From assembly GCA_030698575.1 (NCBI GenBank), contig JAUYMQ010000044.1, forward strand, positions 1-6,878: DNA of 6,878 nt. The letters run 5' to 3'. The notes beneath the pieces were generated by a model that saw only the letters and a program-made list of their open reading frames with translations, had not been told where the DNA came from and did not search any database. This document shows positions 2,227 to 4,585 of the stretch, in pieces. The position numbers and the translations under genes were made by a program. The first letter of the stretch is position 1. Every line of letters begins with the position of its first letter. The stretch comes from Deltaproteobacteria bacterium. GTDB taxonomy: Bacteria > JAUYMQ01.

Positions 2227-2619
2227 ATGGCGGGAGGAAAGAGAGCGGTGCCGAGCGGCCAGTCACTCGAGGACGAGGTCGCCGGCCTCGGAAGGAAGCT
2301 CGGGCTGAACGTCCAGCGGCAGGTGAAGGTTGGGCGGCGGCTCTGGGGAGCGGAGCGCCGGATCGATCTGGTGCTGACTTACCGGGAAAGCCGTCGCAGC
2401 ATCGGTATCGAGTGCAAGGCCCAGGCTGCGCGGGGAACCGCGGAGGAGAAGATTCCGGCGATCATTTCAGACATCGACGCCTGGCCCATCAAGGGGCTCG
2501 TCGTATTCGCCGGCGAGGGGTTCTCGGGCAACATGCAGAACTATCTGTTTTCGACCGGAAAGGCCGTCGCCTTCGAAGATCTGGAAGCCTGGCTCAGGCT
2601 TTACTTCGGGCTCGACTAG
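2227..2619 (+). CDS. Small PD-(D/E)XK nuclease-like protein, probable partner of the adjacent Dam methylase
   Basis: This is a 130-residue soluble protein with no signal peptide or membrane segment. It shows the order expected of a PD-(D/E)XK nuclease core: an N-terminal helix with acidic residues (Glu15, Glu17 in SLEDEVAGLGRKLGL), a strand with Asp47 (RRIDLVL), then Glu62-Cys63-Lys64 in IGIECKAQ. A helix (GTAEEKIPAIISDI), a strand (GLVVFAG) and a short C-terminal helix (FEDLEAWLRLYF) follow. Asp47, Glu62 and Lys64 would be the metal and catalytic residues. It ends 36 bp from the end of a convergent Dam-type methyltransferase gene, which suggests the restriction half of a compact type II-like system, or a GATC-linked repair or mismatch nuclease. 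I recall similar short proteins annotated as PD-(D/E)XK superfamily, but cannot confirm this here. At 130 residues it is much shorter than DpnII- or MboI-type enzymes (around 280). The nuclease fold is likely; the restriction role and the GATC target are inference. Confidence 0.75.
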   Translation: MAGGKRAVPSGQSLEDEVAGLGRKLGLNVQRQVKVGRRLWGAERRIDLVLTYRESRRSIGIECKAQAARGTAEEKIPAIISDIDAWPIKGLVVFAGEGFSGNMQNYLFSTGKAVAFEDLEAWLRLYFGLD

Positions 2620-2655
2620 TAACCCGCTGCGTGGTCGTTTTGATTTCTGCCGGCG

Positions 2656-3504
2656 TCAGGCGGGCGGTGCAGGAATGCGCGAGAGCGAGCTGACGAGCAG
2701 TTCGAAGATGGGACCCCGCCTGTCAGGGCGCGAATTGATGAGCCGGTTGACCTTGACTGCCTCGAGGGGGAGCCCCTCGTAGAGCCCCCGGGTGAACCGG
2801 ACGTCGGAGTTCGAAAGCAGCGCGTAAACCTTCTTCTTCCGCAGCCGCCGGAGCGTCCTTGCCAGGCGATCCTGCTCCGCGGGGCCGAAGGGCAACCGGT
2901 CGTAGGCGGTGAAGCTCGACGTCGTCGAGACGGGGACGTAGGGGGGATCGAAGTAAACCACGTCTCCCGGTTCCGCCTTTTCAACGAACGCTTCGAAATC
3001 ACCCACCCTTATCTGCACGCCCTGCATGACCCGCGAGGCCGCCCTCAGATTGTCCCGATCAAGAATACGGGGGTTCTTGTAGCGCCCGAAAGGGACGTTG
3101 AAGCGCCCCGTTCGATTGACGCGGTACAGGCCGTTGTAGCCCGTGCGGTTCAGGTAGATGAGCCGCGCCGTCCGCGCGGCCAGGCCCAGCCGCGCAGGGT
3201 CCTGCGCGCGGACGCCGTAATAGGTGTCGCTGTCGTGCGGTTTACGGGAGAGACGGGCAAGCCGGGAGATTACGCCTTCGACGTCGTCGCGAACGCCCAG
3301 ATAGGCATCGACCAGTTCGCGATTCTGATCGCCGATGATCGCCCGCCGGAAGGCGCCGCGGGCTGCCAGGGCGAAAAAGACGGCACCGCCGCCGAGGAAG
3401 GGCTCATAATAGGTGACGCAGCGCTCGGGCAGGCGAGACAGGATTTCGGGGAGAAGCTGTCGCTTGCCCCCCGCCCATTTGAGAAACGGCACTGCTTCTT
3501 TCAC
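2656..3504 (-). CDS. dam: Dam-family DNA adenine-N6 methyltransferase (GATC expected)
   Basis: The enzyme transfers a methyl group from S-adenosylmethionine to adenine N6. At 282 residues it is close to E. coli Dam (278). The class alpha motif order is complete: FLKWAGGK at 7-14 (motif X), EPFLGGGAVFF at 34-44 (motif I, AdoMet loop), GDQNREL at 58-64 (motif II), DPPY at 186-189 (catalytic motif IV) and SNSD at 231-234. The recognition segment NGLYRVNRTGRFNVPFGRYK (124-143) closely resembles the GATC-reading hairpin region of Dam and DpnM, so GATC is the expected site. The start is GTG at 3504 with TGAGGG 4 nt upstream; the first motif begins at residue 7, which supports this start. It converges with the small nuclease gene and follows the secreted-protein gene on the same strand after an 85 bp gap holding its own promoter-like boxes and a tandem repeat. 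It could be a restriction-system methylase or a solitary housekeeping Dam. Confidence 0.93.
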   Translation of the reverse strand: MKEAVPFLKWAGGKRQLLPEILSRLPERCVTYYEPFLGGGAVFFALAARGAFRRAIIGDQNRELVDAYLGVRDDVEGVISRLARLSRKPHDSDTYYGVRAQDPARLGLAARTARLIYLNRTGYNGLYRVNRTGRFNVPFGRYKNPRILDRDNLRAASRVMQGVQIRVGDFEAFVEKAEPGDVVYFDPPYVPVSTTSSFTAYDRLPFGPAEQDRLARTLRRLRKKKVYALLSNSDVRFTRGLYEGLPLEAVKVNRLINSRPDRRGPIFELLVSSLSRIPAPPA

Positions 3505-3575: not shown

Positions 3576-3595
3576 GATTATGGGCAAGATTATGG
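3573..3595 (-). repeat. Tandem 11 bp direct repeat upstream of dam
   Basis: CAAGATTATGG (plus-strand reading) occurs exactly twice, at 3573-3583 and 3585-3595, separated by a single G, giving a 12 bp period. The second copy covers the TAA stop of the secreted-protein gene (3592-3590), and the first copy overlaps the inferred -35 of dam. An exact AT-rich repeat in DNA this GC-rich is unlikely by chance. A paired regulator site, or a small duplication at the end of the upstream gene, are the main readings. Confidence 0.7.
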
Positions 3596-4585
3596 CGCTT
3601 GCTCCACTTTCGGTCGCGCGCCTTCCTTCGGCGAACGGCCCTCCGGCGGCTTGATGTCGCTGGCGGCCAGCCGGTCGATCAACTGATCGAACATCGCCTT
3701 GCGTTTCCGGGCCCGGTCGGGGCGATCGAAGTAGGTGACCTGCAACGCGCCGACCGGGTAGTGGATGACGGCGCCCGTGACCATGACCCGCTCGTCGACG
3801 GCCTGCTGGTAGGCGGTGACCAGGCGCCCGCCGGCCCGGGTATCCACGCCGCTCGTGCGAATTCGCTCCGCCCCCCGGCTGCGCGCCACCTGATCGAGCC
3901 CCTCGAGTAGCAGCTCAAGCGTCTGATCGAACCCCGCCGGGCGATACTCGTAGCGAATCATGCCGGGCGCCCCCTCGGAGGGGTCGTCGGGAGCCGACGC
4001 CCGCCCCGTCAGGCCGGCGTCGTCCAGCATCTCGGGCGACCAGTTCGCCGGAGCGATAATCCCCGCCGGCGCACCCGGCAGGGGAAAGAAAGTGTCTGTC
4101 CTGTCCACGGTCGTCCCAGCGGCGATGCGCGCGGCCACCTCGCGGGCAGGCGCCGGGTCCTCGCCATTCGCCAAAACCGCGACGGGGATCATCCTCGTTC
4201 CCTTCCAGACGAACACCGTGGCCTGAACCAGATGCGCCTTGCCCTGTGTCGCCACGCCCCAGATCTCCGCCGCCGCGTAGCCATCCATCGGAAAGGTGCG
4301 CCCTTCCATCTCGCCCGCCTTCGCATCCTCGGGAAAGACGGCCAGAGCGAGCGGCTTCAGTGCGTCGATATTCGGCGAGAGGATCAGATCGGCGTCGAAG
4401 ACGGCGGCGTCGCGGAATTTCGAGCCTTCGGGGGGACTGAAGGCTTGATCGCCTCCTTCCGATTCGATTCGCGTCCAGCCCTCGGGCGGCTTCACCTCCA
4501 GCTGCGCGGGAGCCGGGGTCGCCGCAAGAAGGGCCAGGGCCGCCCCAAGCAGCGCCGCAGCGGCCCTCTGTCCTGCGCGCATCAT
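3590..4585 (-). CDS. Secreted protein of unknown function, possibly two related domains
   Basis: I do not recognise this protein. It has 331 residues and a clear Sec signal peptide: Arg3 and Arg7, a hydrophobic core at 8-22 and an APA/Q cleavage site after residue 27. It has no cysteine at all, so it is not a lipoprotein and has no disulfides. The mature part falls into two halves (about 31-160 and 172-308) joined by a proline- and glycine-containing linker. Both begin with a P-x-x-W-like turn (PPEGW, APANW) and end with an alpha-helix after a beta stretch, so a tandem duplication of a PsbP/Mog1-like fold is possible but weakly supported. PPEG recurs at residues 33-36, 51-54 and 314-317. The C-terminal 20 residues are charged and disordered-looking. 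Tandem ATG codons start at 4585; AGGAG lies 5 nt upstream. It is divergent from moaA (112 bp apart) and precedes dam on the same strand, with which it might be partly co-transcribed. An exported, probably periplasmic location is the only safe statement. Confidence 0.85.
   Translation of the reverse strand: MMRAGQRAAAALLGAALALLAATPAPAQLEVKPPEGWTRIESEGGDQAFSPPEGSKFRDAAVFDADLILSPNIDALKPLALAVFPEDAKAGEMEGRTFPMDGYAAAEIWGVATQGKAHLVQATVFVWKGTRMIPVAVLANGEDPAPAREVAARIAAGTTVDRTDTFFPLPGAPAGIIAPANWSPEMLDDAGLTGRASAPDDPSEGAPGMIRYEYRPAGFDQTLELLLEGLDQVARSRGAERIRTSGVDTRAGGRLVTAYQQAVDERVMVTGAVIHYPVGALQVTYFDRPDRARKRKAMFDQLIDRLAASDIKPPEGRSPKEGARPKVEQAP

Follow-up and report, generated by a model that had tools for sequence, protein, structure and literature searches.

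A compact PF20472 nuclease linked to a Dam methylase, a probable minimal restriction-modification system for GATC

Introduction

The nearest described counterparts of the locus reported here are systems of the DpnII/LlaDCHI type, in which the methylase M.DpnII is encoded next to a restriction endonuclease (REase) of the PF04556 family, a protein of about 300 aa. A second methylase gene is also present in the Lactococcus plasmid locus. In Dam-directed mismatch repair, a GATC nuclease is likewise paired with Dam; this nuclease, MutH, is a longer protein than the one considered here and belongs to another family. Among type IIP enzymes, the small end of the subunit range is represented by PvuII, at 18.3 kDa (PMC4081073).

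Here, a nuclease of 130 aa (14.3 kDa, pI 9.2) is described beside a Dam-type methylase in the window, by which we mean the whole of contig C577 (6,878 bp) from a 4.1-Mb source genome (653 contigs, 91.6% complete, 4.6% contaminated). The pair resembles DpnII-type loci in the adjacency of its genes and in a methylase that is nearest to M.DpnII; it differs from them in carrying no second methylase gene and in a nuclease without PF04556. The original prediction remarked that known GATC enzymes are around twice the size of this protein or more, and the DpnII-family REase compared here, at 304 aa, agrees with that remark. With PvuII and other small type IIP enzymes the nuclease shares a PD-(D/E)XK core and an expected homodimeric form, while its mass is lower and no sequence relation was detected. 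As a type II restriction enzyme, it would be the smallest known to us.

Neither PF20472 nor PDDEXK_11, the family to which the nuclease belongs, is mentioned by accession or name in the literature searched, so the linkage of the window lineage to Dam is new relative to that search; queries on the smallest restriction enzyme, on E. coli Dam residues and on GATC systems of Chloroflexi returned nothing specific. The parts of the locus are members of known families. Put together, they give a system of a familiar kind, and no description of so unusually small a version was found in that literature.

Results

The window encodes, in order, a penicillin-binding protein fragment, an MscS-type channel, the nuclease, Dam, a protein that matches no family, MoaA and YchF. 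Analysis of the reading frames (Table 1) bears out the arrangement given in the original prediction: a 130-residue frame with an Asp and a Glu-x-Lys motif at the proposed positions, converging with a methylase gene so that only a short spacer separates the two stop codons. Chance open reading frames can be dismissed as an explanation for both genes, because their family scores lie well over the respective cut-offs. Downstream of Dam, at positions 3593-4585 on the reverse strand, lies the gene for a 331-aa protein, which has a likely N-terminal signal peptide and no Pfam match.

Table 1. Coordinates of the nuclease-Dam pair in the window
Feature	Position	Strand	Details and basis
Nuclease, PF20472 PDDEXK_11, predicted restriction endonuclease subunit	2227..2619	+	130 aa, ATG start; Pfam, AlphaFold2, structural neighbours, homologue length and start
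Asp47 codon, predicted metal ligand on strand 2	2365..2367	+	Residue conservation and model strand 43-52
Glu62-Cys63-Lys64 codons, predicted catalytic E-x-K on strand 3	2410..2418	+	Residue conservation and model strand 57-65
Spacer separating the converging stop codons of nuclease and Dam	2620..2655	.	36 bp
Dam-family N6-adenine methyltransferase, predicted specificity GATC	2656..3504	-	282 aa, GTG start; TIGR00571, PF02086, M.DpnII match, GATC-contact residues

The methylase had been described as a complete Dam-type enzyme, and this holds: it is a full-length member of the Dam family by both TIGR00571 (258.3 bits against a cut-off of 114.85, E 9e-77) and PF02086 (E 9.6e-58). It is also the sole Dam over the cut-off in the source genome. 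Its closest solved structure is M.DpnII (2dpm, E 3e-60), followed by E. coli Dam (E 3e-41). The DPPY motif is intact. Specificity can be judged from residues K9, Y119, N120, L122, R124 and P134 of E. coli Dam, which we take to be its GATC contacts; the aligned residues read KYNLRP in the window protein and KFNLRP in M.DpnII. This string is kept in nearly all of the Dam proteins paired with the nuclease, with Y or F at position 119. In PADLOC, the methylase matches the MTase_II and orphan MTase models.

The nuclease is a member of PF20472 (PDDEXK_11) by the curated Pfam cut-off (64.1 bits against 23.7, E 1.5e-17), a family named by its fold only. NCBIfam names no function for it, none of the PADLOC-DB families matches it, and PF04556, the family of the DpnII REase, gives no match at E up to 1. 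A sequence search of solved structures found no relative, returning a single chance match to a dehydrogenase. An AlphaFold2 model built from 28 sequences (mean pLDDT 87.7, pTM 0.81) comprises a helix (residues 11-24), three strands (28-37, 43-52 and 57-65), a second helix (72-84), a fourth strand (89-95) and a closing helix-strand-helix. The resulting order, H E E E H E H E H, contains the alpha-beta-beta-beta-alpha-beta nuclease core. In this model, Asp47 is placed on the second strand and Glu62 and Lys64 on the adjacent third, which is the canonical PD-(D/E)XK arrangement. Foldseek returned largely PD-(D/E)XK proteins as top matches, none of which reached an E of 1e-3, and alignment with VIA-align gave Z values of 10.3 for Can2, 10.0 for BstEII, 9.9 for AF1548, 9.7 for Bax1, 9.4 for XisH, 7.4-7.5 for Hjc, 7.4 for MunI and 7.3 for PspGI. 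As values of 7-8 are common in such comparisons, these matches support the fold and not a function. The archaeal Hjc resolvases, XisH, the CRISPR ancillary nucleases Can2/Card1 and BstEII are accordingly structural neighbours (Z about 6.5-10) at 6-19% identity, and the shared fold shows no shared function. The predicted fold is thus restriction-endonuclease-like, as had been proposed from the motifs.

Conservation of the putative catalytic residues points in the same direction. Asp47 is kept in 48/49 Dam-paired homologues, Glu62 in 42/49 and Lys64 in 48/49, and all three are present in every one of the 25 unpaired homologues. The start, length and end of the protein are also conserved in most close homologues, which mostly span 129-132 aa. 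If the nuclease were inactive or decaying, the real unit would be a solitary regulatory Dam. Broken copies (L003, L004, L005, L067 and L105) and the Dam-only loci found in the phylum of genome G277 speak for such a loss, which we nonetheless regard as extremely unlikely for this protein: the window copy is intact with every catalytic residue present, intact copies predominate, and dN/dS values of 0.04-0.07 indicate purifying selection, with synonymous sites saturated in most sibling pairs and a value of 0.061 in the L100/L101 pair, where dS is 0.46.

The linkage of the two genes was surveyed with the nuclease as the only query, Dam then being sought in the flanks. A first contig search found four relatives (two from Polyangiaceae, one from a Dehalococcoidia and one from an Anaerolineales), each beside Dam. 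The genomes searched comprised 386 varied genomes, 377 from the phylum of locus L002, 400 from that of L004 and 68 from that of G277; the nuclease is carried by 30/377, 19/400 and 25/68 genomes of these three phyla, respectively. In 98 genomes sampled across the domain, none of them nearer to the source genome than domain level, no close relative was found. The close group consists of 43 loci outside the source genome, mostly with 53-66% identity to the window nuclease; one further intact pair, L025, was left out of this count, having been found via its Dam. Dam is adjacent in 41 of the 43. Of the remaining two, L105 encodes a truncated nuclease separated from Dam by 1.5 kb, and L032 has an intact nuclease adjoining an Mrr-type gene, with Dam absent within the fetched flanks.

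The orientation of the pair is variable. Nuclease followed by Dam is the commonest arrangement, the reverse order occurs in L002, L025, L029 and L059, and the genes converge in the window, L004, L066 and L070. That the genes stay linked however they are ordered and oriented speaks for selection that keeps the two together. Distances in the nuclease and Dam trees are also correlated (r 0.80 over 37 close pairs, with 0/5000 permutations as high), reflecting a shared history that is by itself no proof of interaction. Together, the conserved linkage and correlated trees give good support to the functional link that the original prediction had inferred. None of the three findings named there as refuting it was obtained: most homologues do have a methylase neighbour, the fold is of the restriction-endonuclease type, and Asp47, Glu62 and Lys64 are conserved.

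Pairing with Dam is recurrent within PF20472 and not universal. Distant family members lie beside Dam at L010, L013, L014, L070 and L072-L077, on an Alicyclobacillus plasmid and in cyanophages. A related group of proteins of ~155 aa, with 33-41% identity, lacks a neighbouring Dam in all 24 of its tips; it forms a single clade (support 0.905), retains all catalytic residues and is mostly myxococcal (L035-L056 in the phylum of L002, L069 and L071 in that of L004). The Dam link therefore marks particular lineages. From this clade it follows that the fold can work without Dam, and the Mrr-type neighbour at L032 might be read in the same way: the nuclease could be methylation-dependent (type IIM or IV, DpnI-like), or could cut a target unrelated to GATC, with Dam a chance neighbour in a defence or mobile cluster. 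We consider either version very unlikely. A nuclease that cuts GmATC would be directed against the very DNA that its companion Dam methylates in the same cell, and 130 residues leave no room for a winged-helix domain like that of DpnI. Mere neighbourhood is argued against by an adjacency that stays constant through rearrangement and by the correlated trees.

Relatives also occur in viruses. A single-sequence query with the nuclease gave no match in phage records, plasmid records or viral contigs, and a query with an alignment reached distant phage relatives. Within the fetched flanks of 52 viral PF20472 loci, a Dam-type methylase is found at 18. Many viral members (L107-L157, L250) carry Ser at the position of Glu62, in the motif S-L-K-Y-Q. 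In several marine Synechococcus phages, a PF20472 gene annotated as a hypothetical protein lies just downstream of a DNA methyltransferase gene.

At L066 (1055-1884, reverse strand), the nuclease gene is tandemly duplicated beside a convergent Dam; in the second copy, Asp47 is kept and Glu62 and Lys64 are replaced by Ser and Met, respectively, which suggests either a partner subunit devoid of catalytic activity or a gene in decay. Genome G387 contains the intact pair at L025 and also a second, decayed one, L003, with damage to nuclease and Dam alike.

In the phylum of G277, the pair occupies one site, beside an HD-GYP response regulator and argH, at six loci (L158, L160, L161, L163, L164 and L165) from three families (f216, f261 and f266); in other genomes of the phylum it is located elsewhere. 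In genome G1228 (L190), Dam lies beside the same type of regulator with the nuclease absent, an arrangement consistent with secondary loss of the nuclease. Other Dam genes of this phylum that lack the nuclease have different neighbours. At L176, Dam adjoins a DpnII REase (PF04556, E 2e-92), which thereby fills the neighbouring slot in a relative phylum. At L198 (623-1498, reverse strand), the gene directly beside Dam encodes a 292-aa protein with a DUF7226 domain and a C-terminal NucS nuclease domain (NucS_C), possibly another type of Dam-linked nuclease. The presence of a DpnII REase or a NucS_C protein beside other Dam genes suggests that the nuclease slot is exchangeable, which favours restriction-modification.

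The rates of change of the two proteins set the pair apart from DpnII systems. In nine sibling pairs, the nuclease is 79-94% identical and Dam 68-83%, and the nuclease is the more conserved in 9/9. The same holds in 650/666 pairs overall, a figure that is inflated, as the close set was picked on nuclease identity; the sibling comparisons are the safer evidence. In nine DpnII systems the relation is reversed, the REase being less conserved than the methylase in 33/36 pairs and more conserved in 3/36. Alternatively, the nuclease could change slowly because it is small and consists almost wholly of core.

Vertical inheritance at a fixed site and a nuclease that evolves more slowly than its Dam are unusual for restriction-modification systems, and together they make domestication beyond plain restriction possible. 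Both features favour a Dam-dependent nuclease for repair or replication quality control, which, like MutH, would nick or cut unmethylated or hemimethylated GATC of its own chromosome, for strand discrimination or for removal of unreplicated or damaged DNA, and would have no anti-phage role. As a general account of the pair this is unlikely, for several reasons. MutL of the source genome and of 12 sampled hosts keeps the DQHA(x)2E endonuclease core, so that a nick of the MutH type is not needed; here, MutL is of the endonuclease type, in contrast to MutH/Dam-directed repair. PF20472 genes next to Dam are also carried by a plasmid and by phages, the distribution of the family among the genomes of the three phyla is patchy, and Dam persists beside the same regulator type without the nuclease in G1228. 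The methyl-directed repair nuclease offered as one option in the original prediction is disfavoured on the MutL evidence.

The MutL core was present in every complete C-terminal domain of the host proteins, and the longer motif varies at its final acidic position. Absence of the endonuclease motif from some host MutL proteins, as a strict 12-residue pattern had suggested, was rejected because the complete domains show DQHA(x)2E, and the MutH-like reading thereby lost its support.

Discussion

Taken together, the evidence on family, fold, conserved active-site residues, linkage through rearrangement, correlated trees and purifying selection forms the computed basis for an interpretation that we consider likely: the nuclease and Dam constitute a minimal type II restriction-modification system for GATC. 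From these data we infer cleavage by the nuclease, GATC specificity of both proteins, a nuclease dimer and protection by methylation. Of the three functional options originally put forward, a minimal restriction-modification system fits best. Because the two genes remain neighbours, whatever their order, across dozens of bacteria unrelated to one another, the pair is very probably a miniature system of this kind.

In the proposed mechanism, the Dam-type methylase would methylate the adenine of GATC on the host chromosome, providing a mark of self. The 130-aa nuclease, probably acting as a homodimer, would hold a metal ion through Asp47, Glu62 and Lys64 and would cut unmethylated GATC, or a sequence that contains GATC. 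Such cutting would restrict incoming phage or plasmid DNA. GATC is frequent in the source genome and is not avoided in the window, where 65 sites are found against 67.7 expected. The site counts thus carry no footprint of restriction, which is not necessarily expected of a resident genome that is methylated.

In the lineages where the pair is passed on vertically at a fixed chromosomal site and the nuclease is more conserved than its methylase, there is a small chance that the nuclease has taken another course. There, the 130-aa protein might have turned into a Dam-dependent enzyme of chromosome maintenance that acts on under-methylated or hemimethylated GATC of its own genome, a MutH-like function that would have evolved independently and would operate alongside an endonuclease-type MutL.

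Should the nuclease indeed cut GATC, few type II restriction enzymes that act on their own would be as small: recognition and cleavage of a 4-bp site would both reside in a PD-(D/E)XK core with nothing added. It would then inform how specificity can be fitted to a minimal scaffold, and may serve as an engineering module. A function would also be assigned to part of a Pfam family known by its fold alone. With several host lineages and with both paired and unpaired clades, the family offers a natural test case for the passage from a mobile restriction system to a stably inherited chromosomal one.
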